Notes under the pieces: model-generated
What the model was told of the DNA's origin: nothing
The model's database searches: none
Seen by the model: the letters and a program-made list of their open reading frames with translations, nothing else
Position numbers and translations under genes: made by a program
Shown: piece after piece, positions 25,639 through 33,534 of the stretch
Numbering within the stretch: the first letter of the stretch is position 1
Layout of the letters: each line of letters opens with the position of its first letter
Assembly: GCA_902771225.1 (NCBI GenBank)
Contig: CACXWH010000032.1
Location: forward strand, 1-49,018
From: an uncultured Methanobrevibacter sp.
Lineage (GTDB): Archaea > Methanobacteriota > Methanobacteria > Methanobacteriales > Methanobacteriaceae
Reading direction: 5' to 3'
DNA: 49,018 bases

Positions 25639-25977
25639 TTAAAATAGTTTATTTGATTTTTCAAGCACTTCATCCATTGTATTGAACTCCAAATCCTCAC
25701 CTTCATTACTTTTTATTTCACTAGTGATTAAAACATGTGGTGAAGCCCATAAATAGCTATATGAAAAATATACAACATTTACGATTAATGCCCAATAAAT
25801 AAAGAACAGACCAATCAGTAAAAATAAAATATGAACATAATAATTTCCATATCTTTTCTTTTTCATTAAAATGAAATGTTCTTCTTCCTGTATTTTTTTA
25901 AATTTATGTTCAGATAATTCCTCTGAAATATTATTAATTTCATCAGAATTATCTGCCTTCAATATAAATAGTTCCAT
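25639..25977 (-). CDS. Small membrane protein, unknown, end of the carboxylate gene block
   Basis: A 112-residue protein with a soluble N-terminal half, a strongly hydrophobic centre (HILFLLIGLFFIYWALIVNVVYFSYSYLW) and an acidic tail. I do not recognise a family. It starts 6 bases after the nitroreductase stop codon on the same strand, so it is probably the last gene of that transcript. Whether it shares a function with the upstream enzymes is unknown. Confidence 0.55.
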   Translation of the reverse strand: MELFILKADNSDEINNISEELSEHKFKKIQEEEHFILMKKKRYGNYYVHILFLLIGLFFIYWALIVNVVYFSYSYLWASPHVLITSEIKSNEGEDLEFNTMDEVLEKSNKLF

Positions 25978-25983
25978 GTTAAT

Positions 25984-26490
25984 CTATAGATAAACTGTAA
26001 ATTCATCGATTTCTTTTCTTGGAGTGTCTCTAGGTTCGGCATTACCATAACCTAACGGAGTGAATAATACCGGTTCTTCTGAATCTTTTAGCTTTAAGAA
26101 TTCTCTTGCTTTGTCTGGTTTGAATGCTGCAATATAACAAGTTCCCAGACCTACGCTTGTTGCGGCAAGAATAATATGATCCATTACAATGGTTGCATCA
26201 ATGTCTGAAATGCACTTGTTATCATATTTTCTAACCCATGCTTCATCAGTTTCTGCAACAACACATAATACATATGGTGCTTGAGTAAACCATTTAGCAG
26301 AATAAATTTCAGACAATGCATCTTTATTTTTCTTTGTATCGATTACATAAACTTTAAAAGGCTGATAGTTAACTCCTGTTGGAGCAATTGTAGCTGCTTT
26401 TAAAACGTAATCCAATTTTTCTTTTTCAACTTCCTTATCCAAATATCCTCTAACACTATACCTTTTATTTATTACTTCATCAAATTCCAT
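25984..26490 (-). CDS. Nitroreductase-family FMN oxidoreductase
   Basis: A 168-residue member of the nitroreductase fold. It opens with the FMN-phosphate motif NKRYSVRGY and continues with the APTGVNYQPF segment. GLGTCYIAAF and the C-terminal PLGYGNAEP are also typical. Family members reduce flavins, quinones, nitro groups or enoates with NAD(P)H; the substrate here is unknown. Its ATG lies directly next to the stop of the citryl-CoA-lyase-like gene, which suggests a role alongside that enzyme. Confidence 0.85.
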   Translation of the reverse strand: MEFDEVINKRYSVRGYLDKEVEKEKLDYVLKAATIAPTGVNYQPFKVYVIDTKKNKDALSEIYSAKWFTQAPYVLCVVAETDEAWVRKYDNKCISDIDATIVMDHIILAATSVGLGTCYIAAFKPDKAREFLKLKDSEEPVLFTPLGYGNAEPRDTPRKEIDEFTVYL

Positions 26491-27288
26491 TTAACGACCT
26501 CCATATACAACATCATCTAAATCACAAAAACGTCTGAATTCATCTTCATCCATTTTTTCTTCGTGAATATGAGCAATAATTCCTGGAACACGACCTATTA
26601 TAAAAATACCTAACCCCAAATCTGGAGTAAAACCCAAATCAGATAAAATAGCTGCATTAGCACCATCAACATTTAATTTGATTCCTTTATTTTGATACAC
26701 CAAATCTTCAATAGCTATGGCCAATTTAACATGTGGACCAACAAAACCTTCTTTAATGGTCATTTTAATCAATTGTTCTGCTCTCGGGTCATTAGTATGG
26801 TATCTATGCCCAAAACCAGGGATTTTATCCTCTTTGGAAAAATAATCATTATAAATGTCAATAGCCAAACTGGCAATTTGCTTATTGTCCAAATCATCAT
26901 CTTCTGTCAATATCAAGGAATTGATTTTAGATTGATACAATTCCATTGTTTTTTCAATCGCTCCTGCATGCTTATGGCCAAAAGAAAGTAATGCTCCGGC
27001 AACTGCTGAATTTAAAGGTGAACCTGATGAGGCAATAATTCTTGCAGTTTGAGTGCTTGGAGGAGTTACTCCATGATCACAAAATGAAACCAGAACATGA
27101 TTAAACATTTTACTTTCTTTAATAGAAGGTAATCTTCCTTTTAAAATTAGATAAATCATATCCCCATATCTGATTTTTTCAATTAAATCCTGTTGATTAA
27201 ATCCTCTTGTAGTTAATTTATTTGGTTCTACATTAGAAATAGTTGTTCTTAAAGAGTGTTCATTTACATGAAAATTATTTTCTTGCAT
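26491..27288 (-). CDS. Short citrate-synthase-fold enzyme, citryl-CoA-lyase-like
   Basis: This 265-residue protein is much shorter than citrate synthase (about 370-430) and matches the lyase-domain size of citryl-CoA lyase. Catalytic positions appear intact: His72 in CDHG, His107 in GHKHAGA, His161 in PGFGHRYH, Asp208 in NVDGA and Arg233 in GRVPG. It should make or break a C-C bond between an acyl-CoA and a 2-oxo acid, such as citryl-CoA to acetyl-CoA and oxaloacetate. No CoA ligase (citryl-CoA synthetase) lies nearby. It sits between the fumarase-like gene and the nitroreductase. No ribosome binding site is visible at this ATG. Confidence 0.85.
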   Translation of the reverse strand: MQENNFHVNEHSLRTTISNVEPNKLTTRGFNQQDLIEKIRYGDMIYLILKGRLPSIKESKMFNHVLVSFCDHGVTPPSTQTARIIASSGSPLNSAVAGALLSFGHKHAGAIEKTMELYQSKINSLILTEDDDLDNKQIASLAIDIYNDYFSKEDKIPGFGHRYHTNDPRAEQLIKMTIKEGFVGPHVKLAIAIEDLVYQNKGIKLNVDGANAAILSDLGFTPDLGLGIFIIGRVPGIIAHIHEEKMDEDEFRRFCDLDDVVYGGR

Positions 27289-27344
27289 GATTAAAATATA
27301 ATTTAATCCATTAATAAATGTTATAGTATTTTTTCAAGTAAATA

Positions 27345-28190
27345 TTATAATCTCAAGGTTGCTTTTCTTGGTTCAACAAAACAAGATGGCCTTACACTAA
27401 CAATACGGACTCCACTTGCTCTTTGATTTCCAATTTTTATAAAAGTACCTAAAACAGTAGTGTTGCCGCCGAAGCCCAAAGGTCCGATATTAGTCTGGTT
27501 TAATTTTTCACTGACAAACTTTTCCTCATCACTCATATTATTCAAATTACCATAAATCATAGATTTTAACATTAATGATGATGCTTCGTAGTGAGTTCTT
27601 CCAATACCTATTGACGGGATTGAAGGAGTGCATCCCAATAGTTTTAAAGAGTCTTCAAGCCAATTAATGGCCTGGCCAATAACAACATCAAAGGAACGTT
27701 TATGATAAACCCTATAAGTTTTCGCCCGTATTTCAGGACCTCCGCCCTGAAGCAAAAAATGAACATTCAACTTGTCTGGAGCCTCTACATTATCAATTAA
27801 AAATGAAGCGGGTTTCATTAATCCGGGATCATCATATAAACCCTGTGACTGTTCAACCTTTTCAATACCACTACCTTTTACGGCCATAGGTCTTGCCGGA
27901 AGTTTATTTAACCCCTGATAAATCCCTTCATTAATTTGTTCCATAAAATCCGAAGTGATTTCACGTTGAGAGCCCATCTCAATGACTACATGAGGAATTC
28001 CTGTATCATCACATAATGGAAATTTTGTTTTTTCAGCCACTTCATAGTTTTTTAAAATTTGTGTTAATGCCCAAGAAGCATTTTCATTAGTTTCATTTTT
28101 AATGGCTAATTTTAAAGCATTTCTTTTATCATCAGATAAAGTGGTGCTTGCCTTAATTATTGAGTCAGATACCTTATCAATAATATCCAT
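27345..28190 (-). CDS. Class I fumarase / tartrate dehydratase-type alpha subunit
   Basis: A 281-residue iron-sulfur hydro-lyase subunit. Three cysteines expected to hold the 4Fe-4S cluster are visible: Cys60 in FPLCDDTG, Cys187 in GCTPSIPSIGIG and Cys270 near the C-terminus (RPSCFVEPRKAT). The family hydrates fumarate, mesaconate or related diacids and normally needs a beta subunit, which is not in this window. The start is placed at the ATG at 28190, because the GTG at 28199 is part of the GAGTGAT ribosome binding site. The upstream gene ends inside that site, so translation is coupled. The true substrate may not be fumarate. Confidence 0.85.
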   Translation of the reverse strand: MDIIDKVSDSIIKASTTLSDDKRNALKLAIKNETNENASWALTQILKNYEVAEKTKFPLCDDTGIPHVVIEMGSQREITSDFMEQINEGIYQGLNKLPARPMAVKGSGIEKVEQSQGLYDDPGLMKPASFLIDNVEAPDKLNVHFLLQGGGPEIRAKTYRVYHKRSFDVVIGQAINWLEDSLKLLGCTPSIPSIGIGRTHYEASSLMLKSMIYGNLNNMSDEEKFVSEKLNQTNIGPLGFGGNTTVLGTFIKIGNQRASGVRIVSVRPSCFVEPRKATLRL

Positions 28191-28195
28191 TTTAA

Positions 28196-29095
28196 TCACT
28201 CAGGAACAGCCAAATCACCAGATTTAGATGACATTACATAATCTGAAGCATACTTATCAATCATTCTATTAACCAGTTTGACTTGCTTTACTCTTGCAAT
28301 AGCTTCTTTTTGAGTTGTATCCCAGTTATGGTTAGCTGCAACAGAACCTCCTGTTTTTAAATAAACTGGAGATGCAACCCTGATGAATTCTGGAACTTCA
28401 TAATGCCTAATAAAACCTCCAGTTGATTTCGGATTTTCCGTATGTAAATCTATTGGAATATCAATAGCATTTCTAATGGATGCAATCATTGGTATTTGCA
28501 AGTCTCGAACGGGGTTGAGTGAATCAAGGCCTATTGATTCTAAAAGTTTAGCGGAAGCCGGGTTTCCATGACCAGCATGTGCTGACATTTTGAAATGAAG
28601 GTTTTTTGGAAGTTCGCCCATTATCCTCATTTGATTTAAAGCATATAATAACCCTTCATCATACAATAAAATCCCCCGAACGCCAAAGCTTACAGCTCTT
28701 TTAACATCCTCAATTGCATAACCCAAATTATCATAACCTCTTAAACGATAGCCAATCCTACTTCCTTCTTTTGAATGGACAGTGGCTGATGTGTCATAAG
28801 TTGCTCTCGGTCCAACAGATAAAAATAGTTCACATCCATAATTTTTAGCCAAATCAACCATTTGAATAATATCTTCATCACTTAAAAGCATTATTCCTTT
28901 AGTTTGAGTAACCCTATGGATTGTTAAATCTTGATTTTGAGCTTCATCCAAAAGAGCTTCCATTGTTTTTGGAGATTGTATTCCGGGAACCTCAAATCTA
29001 AATTGTCCGCCATCGTTGAATGTTTTATTAGATTCAAAACCGGAGTCAACTTCATTAATACCTATTTTTTTTAAAAAATCTTTAGTTTTATTCAT
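28196..29095 (-). CDS. TIM-barrel-like protein, U32-peptidase-like, in carboxylate block
   Basis: A 299-residue soluble protein with an alternating strand-helix pattern like a TIM barrel. Examples are the strand segments GCELFLSVGPRA, GVRGILLYDE and IDIPIDLHTENP. It resembles, weakly and by eye, proteins labelled as U32 peptidases, but I cannot see the U32 cysteine signature. A conserved-looking MSAHAGHGNPAS segment and the TGG-rich stretch KSTGGFIRHYEV may form the active site. It overlaps MmgE/PrpD by 8 bases and ends in the ribosome binding site of the fumarase-like gene. A role in the same pathway is likely; I cannot name the reaction. Confidence 0.6.
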   Translation of the reverse strand: MNKTKDFLKKIGINEVDSGFESNKTFNDGGQFRFEVPGIQSPKTMEALLDEAQNQDLTIHRVTQTKGIMLLSDEDIIQMVDLAKNYGCELFLSVGPRATYDTSATVHSKEGSRIGYRLRGYDNLGYAIEDVKRAVSFGVRGILLYDEGLLYALNQMRIMGELPKNLHFKMSAHAGHGNPASAKLLESIGLDSLNPVRDLQIPMIASIRNAIDIPIDLHTENPKSTGGFIRHYEVPEFIRVASPVYLKTGGSVAANHNWDTTQKEAIARVKQVKLVNRMIDKYASDYVMSSKSGDLAVPE

Positions 29096-30512
29096 TTAAA
29101 GCCCCAACAACATCAGTCATTGAATAATTATCTAATTCATCAATAATAACAAGATTATTAATATTATATTCAGGATTTAAATCTTTAAATTTGTCAATTA
29201 ATTCACTTAAGTCATACGGGTTTTCAAAATCGCCTTTTGGAATAAATGTAATATTCTGAAATACACCATTTCTAAACTCATCGTCTAATTTAATTATTAC
29301 ATTTGAAGGCCTTTTACTTGGATATAAATCATTTAATTTTTCATCTTTTAAAATTATCATTTTACTGACAAGGTTTTTAATATTATTTACCTTATCCACA
29401 GTAGAATAATTTTCAAACAATCCATATTCAATCAATTTATTCAATGTATCAATATCCACTTCTCCCATGACTAAAGTTATAGCTACTGCATATGGAAGAC
29501 TCTGTTTTAATTCTTCCAAATTCTTTGGCTGGAAATTGTCATGTTCTGCTGCAACATCATATGTTTTAACAGCCACATTTTCAATATGAGTATATTCATC
29601 GCCGATACTAATTTTAAGCTTTAATGCAGTATCTATGGAAGAATGAAGGTGTCTACAAAAAGGATATTTTTTGAAATAAATATCCCTAACTTTAACAGTA
29701 CCAACATCCTCTAAAATAGAATCAAAAGAATAATCATCATTATTAAATTCTTCATTATAAACCATCGTTTTTAAAAATCCTTCAGAACCTTCAATTATAG
29801 TTTCAGCTCCAGTGAATCCATTTCTAGCAAGAAAAGCAGATAATATTCCATTATAATTAGCTTTTCCAACATGAAGAACTTTGCCCATACTTCCAGCATG
29901 ATCGGATTCCAGCAAACCTGCAGCCTGAGTTCCACACAATCCCAATGCATTTGAAATTTGAGTTTCGTCAAGTTTAAGCAATTTAGAAGCAACAGCACCT
30001 GAAACAAAAGTTCCGATTGTTCCGGTTGTGTGAAAACCATTATCTCTATGGCGAGGATTAACTAGCTTTCCAAGCAAAATTCCAACTTCATAACCAACGA
30101 TAACGGCTTCAAAAAATTCTTTACCATCCAATCCATAGGCTTCAGATATTGCTAAAGCTGTTGGAAAAATAACTGCCCCCAAATGAGCTTGTGCTTGTCT
30201 GTGACCATCATCCAATTCCAAAACATGTGCAGAAATACCATTCAAAAAAGCTGCATTCAACAGACCTGTTTTTTTACCTGATTTTCCAATAATTGATGCC
30301 TGTAAATTTAAATTATCATTTTTGTTAAATATTTCATTAATAGTATTGAAAGCTATTGCTGGAGAGTCTTCGTTAGCTCCTCTATACGTTACACCAAAAA
30401 AATCAAGAAAAGCTGCTTTAACAGTATTGATTGATTCAACAGTAGCCTGTTCATAACGATAGTTTGAAATAAATTTTGAAATATCTTGCAAAAACATAAT
30501 AATCTTAAACAT
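29088..30512 (-). CDS. MmgE/PrpD-family dehydratase or decarboxylase
   Basis: A 474-residue member of the family of 2-methylcitrate dehydratase (PrpD) and cis-aconitate decarboxylase. Typical motifs are HVLELDDGHRQAQAHLGA (about 96-113) and GFHTTGTIGTF (about 159-169), plus RHLHSSIDTAL later on. The family removes water, or in one branch CO2, from tricarboxylates. The start may be the ATG at 30512 or the one at 30497; neither has a ribosome binding site. A TATA-like AAACTATTTAAGATT lies about 25-40 bases upstream, so it may have its own promoter as well as read-through from the transporter genes. Confidence 0.88.
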   Translation of the reverse strand: MFKIIMFLQDISKFISNYRYEQATVESINTVKAAFLDFFGVTYRGANEDSPAIAFNTINEIFNKNDNLNLQASIIGKSGKKTGLLNAAFLNGISAHVLELDDGHRQAQAHLGAVIFPTALAISEAYGLDGKEFFEAVIVGYEVGILLGKLVNPRHRDNGFHTTGTIGTFVSGAVASKLLKLDETQISNALGLCGTQAAGLLESDHAGSMGKVLHVGKANYNGILSAFLARNGFTGAETIIEGSEGFLKTMVYNEEFNNDDYSFDSILEDVGTVKVRDIYFKKYPFCRHLHSSIDTALKLKISIGDEYTHIENVAVKTYDVAAEHDNFQPKNLEELKQSLPYAVAITLVMGEVDIDTLNKLIEYGLFENYSTVDKVNNIKNLVSKMIILKDEKLNDLYPSKRPSNVIIKLDDEFRNGVFQNITFIPKGDFENPYDLSELIDKFKDLNPEYNINNLVIIDELDNYSMTDVVGALNE

Positions 30513-30565
30513 TATTTATGTAAGAATAATCTTAAATAGTTTATCTAAAAAAATAGAAAGTAATT

Positions 30566-31063
30566 TTAAACAGCGGGAACGCCGGTTAATACAAGAACTA
30601 TGTGGGCTACAATTGCTGCCCCATAATATGTTGATGCAATAACCAGAATAGTTATGACAATAGCCCTCCAACCCAAAGCCTTGAATTTATTCCAACTTTT
30701 ACCCATTCCAATACCAACATAAGCCAAAAATACAGTAACAATAGATAAAAGTTCGATTTGAGAAACATAATGAAGGACAAAATTAGACGTAGGCATTCCT
30801 GGAAAAGCCAAAATGATACCGATTAAACTGATATAAATAATTGAAGAAACATTAAAAGGAAGTTCCCTTTCCATCCAAACTCCTGCAAGAGTAATTAATG
30901 ACAAAATTCCCATACCAACCAATGAATCAGTCATCGGATGTTTATATCCCAAATAATTTCCGATAACGGTAATAACAGAAAAGATAATCAACAATCTAAT
31001 CCAATTCATAATACCATGAACAGAAACATTCTCAGTCCCATCAATAAAATCAGGCATCTCCAT
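30566..31063 (-). CDS. 165-aa membrane protein paired with DUF3100, copy 1
   Basis: A 165-residue protein with about five helices and no known catalytic motif. It begins 14 bases before the end of the DUF3100 gene upstream, so the two are translated together and probably form one permease. Only five residues differ from copy 2 (positions 2, 44, 105, 109 and about 132, by my count), which is far fewer than between the two DUF3100 partners. A transport role for the pair is inferred from membrane character and the enzyme genes downstream. Confidence 0.7.
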   Translation of the reverse strand: MEMPDFIDGTENVSVHGIMNWIRLLIIFSVITVIGNYLGYKHPMTDSLVGMGILSLITLAGVWMERELPFNVSSIIYISLIGIILAFPGMPTSNFVLHYVSQIELLSIVTVFLAYVGIGMGKSWNKFKALGWRAIVITILVIASTYYGAAIVAHIVLVLTGVPAV

Positions 31064-31961
31064 CTTCCTCCTTCTCTTTTATAATAGATTTTTTTCCAAT
31101 TTTCGGCTCTAAAAAATTATAAACTTTTTCAGTTAATGGAAGAGCAATAAATATCACAATATAAATACCAACACAGAATGAAAGTAAATTACTGAATCCT
31201 GCAAATGCCTCAATATTCGTTTCCATTGTAGGGAATGCTGCAAGGGTTGGTCCAATGGCTGCTGCATTCATACTAGCGCTACCTACACCACTAGCCATAG
31301 CATATGCATAAGGATGCAGAGGTATAAAAGATAATGAAAATGATACTAAAAAGCTGATAAATATCGTACCTATTACAGAACCTATAACATATATGGCAAA
31401 TACACCCCTTGATTCCGGAGAATTAAATCCATACTTATCAACAACAACTGCAACATTAGGTTCACGACCAATTGAATTAGTCATACCCACAGCTTCTTCT
31501 TTAAATCCTAAAAGTAAAGCTAAAGGAAGTACTAAAATTGTGGCCAAATGTCCAAATTCCTGCAATATTAATGCAGGACCCATCTCAAAAATCAAATGAA
31601 TAGATTGACCACTAGAAATAGCTAATTTAGCAATTAATACACCTATAAAAAGCATCATAGCCCCTTCAGCGATTTTTGCTTGTCTTTTTTTAATCCATGT
31701 AATTGGCTTTGCCAGATAAAAAACGATCCCGAAAATAATCGTGAAAATTAAAGGCATGATTGTAATAACAACATCTTTTGTGATGGGAATGTTAATAGTT
31801 CCAATTAATTCTGCTATAACTACTAAAATAAATACAGAACCATGCAATCTATAATCTCTCCAAGGATTCTTCTTTAAAATCCTTTTATCTGTTTTTCTAC
31901 GATAAATATGTTTAACTTTACGTTTTTTATCTTTTTTTGGAATAAACAATCGCCTCTGCAT
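31050..31961 (-). CDS. DUF3100-family membrane protein, copy 1
   Basis: A membrane protein of about 303 residues with eight or so helices after a basic N-terminus (KKDKKRKVKHIYRRK). Conserved stretches shared with copy 2 include SSGQSIHLIFEMGPAL, SIGREP, DKYGFNSPESRG, MASGVGSASMNAA and EAFAGFSNLLSF. DUF3100 proteins have no proven function; glycine-rich, helix-breaking segments such as these are common in secondary carriers. The start is uncertain: ATG at 31961 or TTG at 31970, with only a weak GAGG motif. It precedes copy 1 of the small partner and then MmgE/PrpD. Confidence 0.75.
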   Translation of the reverse strand: MQRRLFIPKKDKKRKVKHIYRRKTDKRILKKNPWRDYRLHGSVFILVVIAELIGTINIPITKDVVITIMPLIFTIIFGIVFYLAKPITWIKKRQAKIAEGAMMLFIGVLIAKLAISSGQSIHLIFEMGPALILQEFGHLATILVLPLALLLGFKEEAVGMTNSIGREPNVAVVVDKYGFNSPESRGVFAIYVIGSVIGTIFISFLVSFSLSFIPLHPYAYAMASGVGSASMNAAAIGPTLAAFPTMETNIEAFAGFSNLLSFCVGIYIVIFIALPLTEKVYNFLEPKIGKKSIIKEKEEDGDA

Positions 31962-32069
31962 TAATGCCAATATAATATCAACATATATTACTATCTCTAA
32001 ACAGCCTTATAAAATAATAAGTTTTTACCCCAAAAAATAGGCAAAATGAGAATAAAAAAGTAAAGGTTA

Positions 32070-32086
32070 ATTCTCAAAATGAGAAT
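32070..32086 (-). terminator. Hairpin between the two transporter copies
   Basis: ATTCTCA (32070-32076) pairs perfectly with TGAGAAT (32080-32086). On the minus strand a T-rich tract follows. A direct repeat AAAATGAGAATAAAA also occurs here twice, about 35 bases apart. It may attenuate transcription between copy 2 and copy 1. Confidence 0.45.
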
Positions 32087-32092
32087 AAAATT

Positions 32093-32590
32093 TTAAACAG
32101 CGGGAACGCCTGTTAATACAAGAACTATGTGGGCTACAATTGCCGCCCCATAATATGTTGATGCAATAACCAGAATGGTTATGACAATAGCCCTCCAACC
32201 CAAAGCTTTGAATTTTTTCCAACTTTTACCCATTCCAATACCAACATAAGCCAAAAATACAGTAACAATAGATAAAAGTTCGATTTTAGAAACATAATAA
32301 AGGACAAAATTAGACGTCGGCATTCCGGGAAAAGCCAAAATGATACCGATTAAACTGATATAAATAATTGAAGAAACGTTAAAAGGAAGTTCCCTTTCCA
32401 TCCAAACTCCGGCAAGAGTAATTAATGACAATATTCCCATACCAACCAATGAATCCGTAATTGGATGTTTATATCCCAAATAATTTCCGATAACAGTAAT
32501 AACAGAAAAGATAATCAACAATCTAATCCAATTCATAATACCATGAACAGAAACATTCTCAGTTCCATCAATAAAATCAGGCATCTTCAT
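32093..32590 (-). CDS. 165-aa membrane protein paired with DUF3100, copy 2
   Basis: Almost the same protein as copy 1 at 30566-31063, with about five helices. The DNA is also nearly identical, including the 3' end. It overlaps the DUF3100 copy 2 gene by 14 bases exactly as in copy 1. It carries Lys where copy 1 has Glu at position 2. Probably the small subunit of a two-part permease. Confidence 0.7.
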   Translation of the reverse strand: MKMPDFIDGTENVSVHGIMNWIRLLIIFSVITVIGNYLGYKHPITDSLVGMGILSLITLAGVWMERELPFNVSSIIYISLIGIILAFPGMPTSNFVLYYVSKIELLSIVTVFLAYVGIGMGKSWKKFKALGWRAIVITILVIASTYYGAAIVAHIVLVLTGVPAV

Positions 32591-33473
32591 TTTCCTCCTT
32601 CTTTTTTATAATAGATTTTCTTCCAATTTTCGGCTCTAAAAAAGCATATAACTTTTCAGTGAGAGGAACAGCTATAAATATTACAATATAAATACCAATA
32701 GAAAATGAAAGTAAATTACTAAAACCAGCAAATGCTTCTATACTAGTTTCTAGTGCAGGAAATTCGGCAAGAGTAGGGCCTAAAGAAGCGGCATTCATAC
32801 TGGCACTGCCTACACCGCTAGCCATAGCAAATGCAAATGGATGTAAAGGCAGTGTGGAAACAGAAATACTGGCCAAAAAACTAATAAATATAGTACCAAT
32901 AATAGTTCCAACAATAAATAATGCAAAAATACCTCTGGATTCTGGAGAGTTAAATCCATATTTATCAACAATGACGGCAACTTCCGGTTCACGGCCTATA
33001 GAACTAGTCATACCAATAGACTCCCGTTTAAATCCTAAGAGTAAAGCAACAGGAAGTGCTATCAAAATTGTGGCTAAATGTCCTAATTCCTGTAACAGCA
33101 ATGCCGGACCCATCTCAAAAATCAGATGAATAGATTGTCCACTAGAAACAGCCAACTTAGCAATTAAAATGCCAATAAAAAGCATCATAGCTCCTTCAGC
33201 AATTTTTGATTGTTTTTTACCAACCCATGTAATACGTTTATCCAAATAGAATATTAAACCTAAAACCATCGTATAAAGCAAAGGCATTATGGAAATTTCT
33301 ATACTGTTAGTTAAATGGATTTCAATAGGGCCTATAATTTCTGCAACAATTACTAAAATTAGAATGGAACCATGCAATCTATAATCTCTCCAAGGATTTT
33401 TCTTTAAAATCCTTTTATCTGTTTTTTTACGATAAGTATGTTTAACATTCTTACGTTGTCCATCTTTACCCAA
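32577..33473 (-). CDS. DUF3100-family membrane protein, copy 2 (first gene of the block)
   Basis: A 298-residue paralog of the 31050-31961 protein, sharing the same conserved blocks but with clear differences in the first three helices and in loops (about three quarters identical by eye). I place the start at a TTG at 33473, because GGAGGT lies 8 bases before it and the sequence then aligns with copy 1 (KHTYRKKTDKRILKKNPWRDYRLHGS-type region). The 50 codons open further upstream are low-complexity and cross the promoter, so I reject them. A palindromic TATA box lies about 50 bases upstream, making this the promoter-proximal gene. Confidence 0.75.
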   Translation of the reverse strand: MGKDGQRKNVKHTYRKKTDKRILKKNPWRDYRLHGSILILVIVAEIIGPIEIHLTNSIEISIMPLLYTMVLGLIFYLDKRITWVGKKQSKIAEGAMMLFIGILIAKLAVSSGQSIHLIFEMGPALLLQELGHLATILIALPVALLLGFKRESIGMTSSIGREPEVAVIVDKYGFNSPESRGIFALFIVGTIIGTIFISFLASISVSTLPLHPFAFAMASGVGSASMNAASLGPTLAEFPALETSIEAFAGFSNLLSFSIGIYIVIFIAVPLTEKLYAFLEPKIGRKSIIKKKEENEDA

Positions 33474-33522
33474 TAAGAAATACCTCCAAGTTCCCCCACA
33501 GTTAATAATTAATATAATACTA

Positions 33523-33534
33523 CTATTTAAATAG
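33523..33534 (-). promoter_or_regulatory. TATA-like palindrome upstream of the carboxylate block
   Basis: CTATTTAAATAG is a perfect 12-base palindrome that contains a TATA-like core. Transcription would begin near 33498, about 25 bases before the TTG start, with the GGAGGT ribosome binding site at 33482-33487 in between. The symmetry also makes it a possible operator. Confidence 0.4.

Follow-up and report, generated by a model that had tools for sequence, protein, structure and literature searches.

The operon described here, from an uncultured Methanobrevibacter sp., carries four genes of a real and conserved core pathway of the class Methanobacteria, and this pathway is more likely to serve biosynthesis than the import and cleavage of a carboxylate. 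The operon lies in a stretch of 49,018 nucleotides (GenBank assembly GCA_902771225.1, contig CACXWH010000032.1; hereafter the window), which corresponds to contig C32 of a genome of 2.36 Mb that is split into 122 contigs. The core genes encode an MmgE/PrpD-family enzyme (PrpD), a TIM-barrel protein without a named family (TIM), the alpha subunit of a class I iron-sulfur hydro-lyase (FumA2) and a citryl-CoA-lyase-like enzyme (CCL). In the reading that we favour, at a probability of about 0.4, the core is an ancestral pathway of the class that, together with a second fumarase beta subunit encoded elsewhere in the genome (FumB2), makes a branched polycarboxylic acid, with the 1,3,4,6-hexanetetracarboxylic acid (HTCA) tail of methanofuran or its 2-hydroxy form as the most likely product. 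A preliminary description of the window had taken the operon for a carboxylate import and cleavage module, a reading that is mostly wrong.

All nine genes of the operon are on the minus strand. The gaps between them are negative or below 60 bp, except for 122 bp between the two pairs of DUF3100 and partner genes, and the coordinates thus bear out the tight packing on one strand that had been noted before. From the head of the operon to the gene that follows it, the features are:

33523 to 33534, minus strand: palindromic A/T-rich box CTATTTAAATAG, a candidate TATA box upstream of the operon
32577 to 33473, minus strand: DUF3100 permease subunit, copy 1 (PF11299, 284 bits), accessory and not core
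32093 to 32590, minus strand: small membrane partner of DUF3100, copy 1, its C-terminal half weakly LysO-like
31050 to 31970, minus strand: DUF3100 permease subunit, copy 2 (PF11299, 284 bits)
30566 to 31063, minus strand: small membrane partner of DUF3100, copy 2
29088 to 30512, minus strand: core gene 1, PrpD (MmgE_PrpD_N, 220 bits)
28196 to 29095, minus strand: core gene 2, TIM, no named family (AlphaFold2 model)
27345 to 28199, minus strand: core gene 3, FumA2 (Fumerase PF05681, 183 bits)
26491 to 27288, minus strand: core gene 4, CCL, with a citrate-synthase fold (Citrate_synt, 145 bits; NF004866, 413 bits)
25984 to 26490, minus strand: nitroreductase-family FMN enzyme (Nitroreductase PF00881, 91 bits)
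25639 to 25977, minus strand: membrane protein of 112 amino acids without a family, 3´ of the nitroreductase gene

The small membrane frame at 25639-25977 keeps its place after the nitroreductase gene in Methanobrevibacter loci. For the first DUF3100 gene, TTG 33473 is the most likely start codon, with GGAGGT (33482-33487) eight bases ahead of it, and the perfect palindrome CTATTTAAATAG about 50 bases upstream of this codon is a putative promoter. The strong ribosome binding site and the palindromic box reported earlier are thus both present at the operon head, and Pfam and NCBIfam scores support the gene families as they had been named.

Homologs of these genes are found together in other genomes, as expected of a conserved module. 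A scan of named genomes returned 35 loci (14 from Methanobrevibacter, 16 from Bacteroidales, 1 from Clostridiales and 4 from Acidobacteria); it missed distant relatives because short query patterns were used. PrpD, TIM, FumA2 and CCL follow in this order as separate genes in 11 of the 14 Methanobrevibacter loci, while L014 has FumA2 and CCL in one frame, L016 starts inside PrpD and L017 lies on a contig without PrpD. We then have 26 further loci, one per genome and spanning genera, with several each from the genera g1, g9, g18 and g19. The four genes are in order on one strand in 20 of them, from Methanothermus to Methanobrevibacter, and in 16 of these 20 all core gaps are below 1 kb. PrpD and TIM (once with FumA2) run to the contig end or to other genes in L052, L056, L062 and L063, and TIM stands alone in L053 and L058. 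The neighbours in many of the loci listed are a TiaS-like gene and an A-type ATP synthase operon, both named by eye. For TIM of the window, the best named relative is 90% identical and comes from a rumen-type Methanobrevibacter metagenome-assembled genome.

The same picture emerges from a search for TIM, CCL, PrpD and DUF3100 over 151 genomes of the phylum. TIM was matched in 128 genomes, PrpD in 127 and CCL in 122. For TIM and PrpD, 19 of 20 genera are positive and the exception is g12, Methanosphaera; CCL is missing from Methanosphaera and from g2, a genus with one genome that is 84% complete. The other TIM misses listed are three genomes of 67-72% completeness. PrpD was not found in the controls M. 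jannaschii and M. acetivorans. The account of the group in PMC13135261 places Methanosphaera within Methanobacterium sensu lato, so that the absence of the core from this genus is most simply a secondary loss.

The lack of a fumarase beta subunit, which the preliminary description had pointed out, is true of the window, but FumB2 is encoded elsewhere in the genome and co-occurs with the module. Alpha and beta subunits are both encoded in the genome of the window: FumA2 in the window itself and FumB2 across two contig ends (C28 and C7) with overlapping sequence, the housekeeping FumB being on C31. We counted these genes in 36 chosen genomes, 16 with the core and 20 of Methanosphaera. Both types of FumB are present in all 16 core-bearing genomes. 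FumB2 was found in none of the 20 Methanosphaera, 19 of which have a single FumB and one of which (72% complete) has none. Two FumA genes occur in 15 of the 16 core-bearing genomes, G132 having the FumA2 type only, and one FumA in 18 of the 20 Methanosphaera, the other two being incomplete genomes in which none was matched. FumB2 would be the partner subunit of FumA2, and this pairing is supported by the adjacency of the two in all 10 gut bacterial loci that have both. In M. thermautotrophicus, FumB2 (L104:9595-9999) has a frame break near its C-terminus with the rest in another frame, from sequencing error or damage.

The position of FumB2 in other genomes suggests a link to methanofuran. In M. 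thermautotrophicus the methanofuran tail is HTCA and in M. smithii it is the 2-hydroxy form (methanofuran-c); methanofurans of Methanococcales and Methanosarcina have glutamate tails, and those of the two control species, in which PrpD was not found, have tails of the glutamate type. Some of the methanofuran proteins that lacked genes in 2011 have since been named (the Mfn genes). A survey of Methanothermobacter genes from that year put the number of such proteins at an estimated seven (PMC3087415). Methanofurans are described as having a common core, which is made by MfnA to MfnF, and five differing side chains (PMC11365854). With the profile TIGR03812 (cut-off 299), MfnA was matched in all of 40 genomes, in 39 over the cut-off, and it scored 537 to 572 bits in six loci scanned. 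We then considered 1.5 kb on each side of mfnA in 30 loci, 17 from outside Methanosphaera and 13 from within it. In 8 of the 17, mfnA is directly followed by FumB2 on the same strand, at a spacing of -4 to 492 bp: in Methanothermus (G138), Methanothermobacter (G148), M. ruminantium (G019) and the genomes G140, G133, G136, G132 and G013. The two genes overlap by 4 bp in G138 and G140. No FumB2 lies within this distance in the 13 Methanosphaera loci. In G105, a further genome outside the 30 loci, mfnA and FumB2 each stand at the start of a contig and face outward, as would be the case if they were adjacent. The methanofuran idea predated the look at these neighbourhoods, which therefore were a test that it could have failed, and we regard the link as suggestive. 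For the four core genes themselves, no linkage to mfnA was seen in the loci examined.

The genus that lacks the core offers a second point of contact. As reported in PMC13135261, all Methanosphaera species have lost the synthesis of molybdopterin, which formylmethanofuran dehydrogenase requires; they are therefore without CO2 reduction on methanofuran. The passages of that source on this loss name no other genus (PMC13135261). They also have carbon monoxide dehydrogenase/acetyl-CoA synthase (CODH/ACS) lost in almost all intestinal species (PMC13135261), so that loss of the module follows methanofuran-dependent CO2 reduction and not CODH. A CODH-linked role was set aside on the same grounds, because Methanobrevibacter keeps the module despite this widespread loss among intestinal species. 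Methanosphaera retain mfnA and mfnB in the absence of the module, and their methanofuran is therefore predicted to have a different tail.

The closest solved relatives of PrpD are B. subtilis IRG1 (7bra, E 6e-33) and IDS-epimerase (2hp3, E 1e-31), with which it has histidines and lysines in common in the aligned blocks; it scores far below the prpD equivalogs (35 bits against a cut-off of 575 for NF006943, and 31 against 458 for TIGR02330). FumA2 scores 121 bits against a fumarate hydratase equivalog cut-off of 276, and the genome has a separate housekeeping pair. In the loci examined, its relatives score at least 258 bits against the window protein and housekeeping FumA at most 90. The two types are 26-36% identical in the class Methanobacteria and are split at 100/100 in a tree of 53 rows. 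The cysteines seen earlier as Cys60, Cys187 and Cys270, counted from an ATG, are Cys63, Cys190 and Cys273 when counted from an upstream GTG; they align with cysteines of 7xky and are the three cluster cysteines. CCL belongs to the citryl-CoA lyase subfamily NF004866 (413 bits, cut-off 245) and is nearest by sequence, among solved structures, to citryl-CoA lyase 6hxp (E 5e-49). The set that had been called intact (His72, His107, His161, Asp208 and Arg233) looks so, and these catalytic residues are kept in alignments to 6hxp and to citrate synthase 1a59. To judge from its sequence, CCL may work in the direction of condensation or of cleavage.

Some variants of these genes deserve mention. FumA2 and CCL form one open frame of 587 amino acids in L014 (10836-12599) and in G086, possibly a natural fusion. 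In G039 an unrelated frame of 418 amino acids (L046:11831-13087), transposase-like by its start only, lies between the two genes. A second CCL paralog, 47-52% identical to that of the window, occurs in L101, L102 and L103 (Methanothermobacter, G133 and G140) about 5-8 kb away from the housekeeping FumA, and phosphate-transport-like genes (named by eye) separate the two. Genomes of g1 have a single CCL match each, except G072.

TIM matched no Pfam or NCBIfam family above cut-off (U32 peptidase, E 0.006). Its AlphaFold2 model has a mean pLDDT of 85.6, with parts of 97-116 and 252-255 unreliable. In a search of known folds, 50 matches were listed with VIA Z values of 13.5-15.4 and root-mean-square deviations of 2.9-4.6 Å, and among these aldolases, a U32 chain, PrpB, CutC and RuBisCO-like barrels score alike. 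Only the barrel fold, as previously named for this protein of 299 residues, is supported, because many barrel families match at similar scores. PrpB chains are among the many barrels matched (TM 0.44-0.47 by query length), unspecifically, and no PrpB match was found by sequence. An assignment of TIM as a U32 peptidase or PrpB is therefore not supported, given fold matches that are unspecific and no sequence match over the cut-off. Ten residues are invariant in an alignment of 32 rows (Arg33, Glu35, His60, Arg61, Arg97, Asp146, Lys169, Asp216, Glu220 and Lys247) and are located in or near predicted barrel strands, a pattern in the model that is as expected of a carboxylate-binding enzyme. Genome G010 has a second, broken TIM copy near the intact one (L054, contig C114).

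As anticipated in the preliminary description, no standard pathway fits this enzyme set. The overall logic could be that of a methylcitrate-like cycle run in the building direction. CCL would condense an acyl-CoA with a 2-oxo acid to give a hydroxy acid of the citrate type, PrpD would remove water, and FumA2B2 would add or remove water at neighbouring carboxylate-bearing carbons, such that PrpD and FumA2B2 together could shift a hydroxyl group by loss and gain of water. TIM may then perform an aldolase- or isomerase-type step. Alternatively, TIM would form a C–C bond and CCL would break one. A reductase, perhaps a flavin enzyme such as the linked nitroreductase of Methanobrevibacter, may saturate a double bond. 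We infer the substrates, the order of steps, the reaction of TIM and the product; HTCA is proposed because these enzymes, suited to branched acids that resemble citrate, fit such a tail.

Several observations weigh against methanofuran as the destination of this acid. FumB2 is not within 1.5 kb of mfnA in 8 of the 17 loci, namely five from g1, Methanobrevibacter, including that of the window's own genome (G042, G101, G039, G065 and G000), and one each from g6 (G009), g3 (G002) and g10 (G102); a distance of about 55-68 kb separates the two genes in four g1 genomes, and they are on different contigs in G000, G009 and G102. In G010, FumB2 lies 142 bp from mfnA on the opposite strand and shares no operon with it. 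The adjacency may also be passive, because mfnA belongs to a conserved gene block that also holds ppsA (phosphoenolpyruvate synthase) and an rpl10e-like gene (by eye), a block kept without FumB2 in M. stadtmanae and M. smithii. Methanosphaera keep mfnB (20/20) and mfnA (19/20 over the cut-off), so the module is not present wherever the methanofuran core is made and would hold for one tail type only. The loss of the core is a co-loss in one genus and a single evolutionary event. The nitroreductase gene is linked to the core in only 10 of the 20 four-gene loci and in only some of the genera, and its family, which has many paralogs and matches in all 36 genomes searched, gives an uninformative profile. 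No ligase that joins the tail to methanofuran was identified in this analysis, and no isotope-labelling result is known that fits the enzyme set. Finally, Bacteroidales, a group not known to make methanofuran, also have relatives of FumA2, FumB2 and TIM.

Among 17 gut bacterial TIM loci, FumA2-type genes are found in 10, FumB2-type genes in 11 and PrpD relatives in 12; in four Acidobacteria loci, TIM is without matches to the other core genes. The neighbours in L019 are a PF15617 C–C bond lyase, an aldo/keto reductase, PrpD, a phosphonopyruvate decarboxylase (TIGR03297, 399 bits), FumB, FumA and ATP-grasp enzymes. The surroundings look like polysaccharide synthesis genes, and other loci are alike by sequence starts only. 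A phosphonate reading of these clusters was rejected: the decarboxylase is present, and no phosphoenolpyruvate mutase was found among the genes scanned, which are part of the clusters only. In the FumA tree the bacterial copies stand beside or within archaeal FumA2, both placements being possible. The Bacteroidales relatives show, at the level of sequence, that the chemistry of the TIM-FumA2-FumB2 unit is not specific to methanofuran; because methanofuran is not expected in these bacteria, more than a single product must be made with this unit.

In view of these relatives, a rival reading is that the product of the core is a different branched polycarboxylate with a use specific to Methanobacteria, in a cofactor, an osmolyte or a surface group, and that the synteny of FumB2 and mfnA is accidental. 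The composition of the mfnA block and the loci in which FumB2 is on the opposite strand or elsewhere would agree with this. It sits poorly with the loss of the core in the genus whose species have all lost formylmethanofuran dehydrogenase function, and with the 4-bp overlaps of mfnA and FumB2 in two families, and we consider it possible but not probable. An extended form of the HTCA proposal would accommodate the bacterial genes: CO2-reducing Methanobacteria would have the HTCA pathway, Methanosphaera would have dropped it on giving up CO2 reduction, TIM, FumA2 and FumB2 would have been exchanged with gut Bacteroidales, in which they would make a related polycarboxylate for surface polysaccharides, and TIM would be a new enzyme family. 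Taken as a whole, this scenario is rather unlikely. Another option is a side branch of the methylcitrate or citrate type, in which a tricarboxylate is made or split for acetyl-CoA, 2-oxoglutarate or an amino acid precursor and which was lost with other anabolism of Methanosphaera. The enzyme set does mirror PrpC, PrpD, AcnB and PrpB in reaction type, CCL is nearest to a citryl-CoA lyase and the fold matches of TIM include PrpB, if unspecifically. Housekeeping FumA and FumB exist separately, PrpD is far from the prpD equivalogs and a link to mfnA would not be expected, so that such a branch is doubtful.

The least probable reading, to which we give very little weight, is the earlier one in which an external di- or tricarboxylate enters through DUF3100 and is dehydrated, rehydrated and split by the enzymes. 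It draws on the place of DUF3100 as the leading gene of the operon, both in the window and in 10 of the 14 loci from Methanobrevibacter, three of the remaining four contigs starting inside or just before PrpD. Over the phylum, DUF3100 was matched in 106 of 151 genomes and in 5 of 20 genera. The other 15 genera, each with at least one TIM-positive genome, gave no DUF3100 match, and all 20 Methanosphaera have DUF3100 without the core. DUF3100 is therefore separable and not part of the core, and the import module was rejected on this distribution. The core also occurs without DUF3100 in Methanothermus and M. thermautotrophicus; the latter (L065) is one of the organisms growing on H2 + CO2 that hold the core, which argues against a catabolic role, as does the finding that FumB2 follows mfnA in roughly half of the genomes considered. 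We infer that DUF3100 and its partner are a separate membrane transporter that was put in front of the core in gut lineages.

The small partner matches LysO-like PF03956 below the cut-off (E 3e-4 to 4e-4) and is in one frame with DUF3100 in L011. Frames of 421-492 amino acids occur in L048 and L055; such longer frames are seen in M. ruminantium-type genomes, with three in a row in L055. The two pairs in the window (30566-33473) resemble a tandem duplication. A structure model of DUF3100 was unusable (mean pLDDT 42.9). In 9 of 20 Methanosphaera (G106, G108, G109, G110, G112, G113, G118, G123 and G125), DUF3100 is about 2-10 kb from the single housekeeping FumB, a hint that it may carry C4-dicarboxylates; the two genes are far apart in G116 and G122 and on different contigs in others.

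A search of the open literature returned no genes for the methanofuran side chain and no description of this pathway, and the side-chain genes of Methanobacteria, the main methanogens of the rumen and the human gut, thus appear to be undescribed. If the HTCA proposal is true, it provides five candidate genes for the methanofuran tail and a new enzyme family, accounts for a second fumarase pair, likely to be annotated as housekeeping, and implies that the methanofuran of Methanosphaera differs in structure. If methanofuran is the wrong destination, a false import-and-cleavage module is still removed and a conserved core pathway in nearly all Methanobacteria remains.

In conclusion, the core resembles several known systems and coincides with none of them. 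It is like the 2-methylcitrate cycle (PrpC, PrpD, AcnB and PrpB) in combining acyl-CoA condensation, dehydration by PrpD, rehydration by an iron-sulfur enzyme and a TIM-barrel C–C enzyme. In contrast to that cycle, CCL is of the short citryl-CoA-lyase type and not PrpC, the hydro-lyase is of the class I fumarase type and not an aconitase, TIM is not PrpB by sequence, and PrpD is far below the prpD cut-off. FumA2B2 has the alpha and beta families and the three cluster cysteines of the two-subunit class I fumarases, tartrate dehydratases and mesaconases, but FumA2 is clearly split from housekeeping FumA. CCL keeps the catalytic residues of citryl-CoA lyase 6hxp, but there is no citryl-CoA synthetase gene beside it and its direction may be condensation. 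The polysaccharide-type clusters of Bacteroidales have TIM proteins 57-62% identical to that of the core, FumA2-type proteins at 42-47% and FumB2-type proteins at 46-55%, but give no CCL match. Methanofuran biosynthesis is approached through the adjacency of FumB2 and mfnA, seen on one strand in 8 of 17 loci and on opposite strands in a ninth, and through the loss of the core in Methanosphaera, which parallels the loss of formylmethanofuran dehydrogenase function; no core gene described here is among MfnA to MfnF, and the core and FumB2 would add to that set the enzymes of one type of tail.

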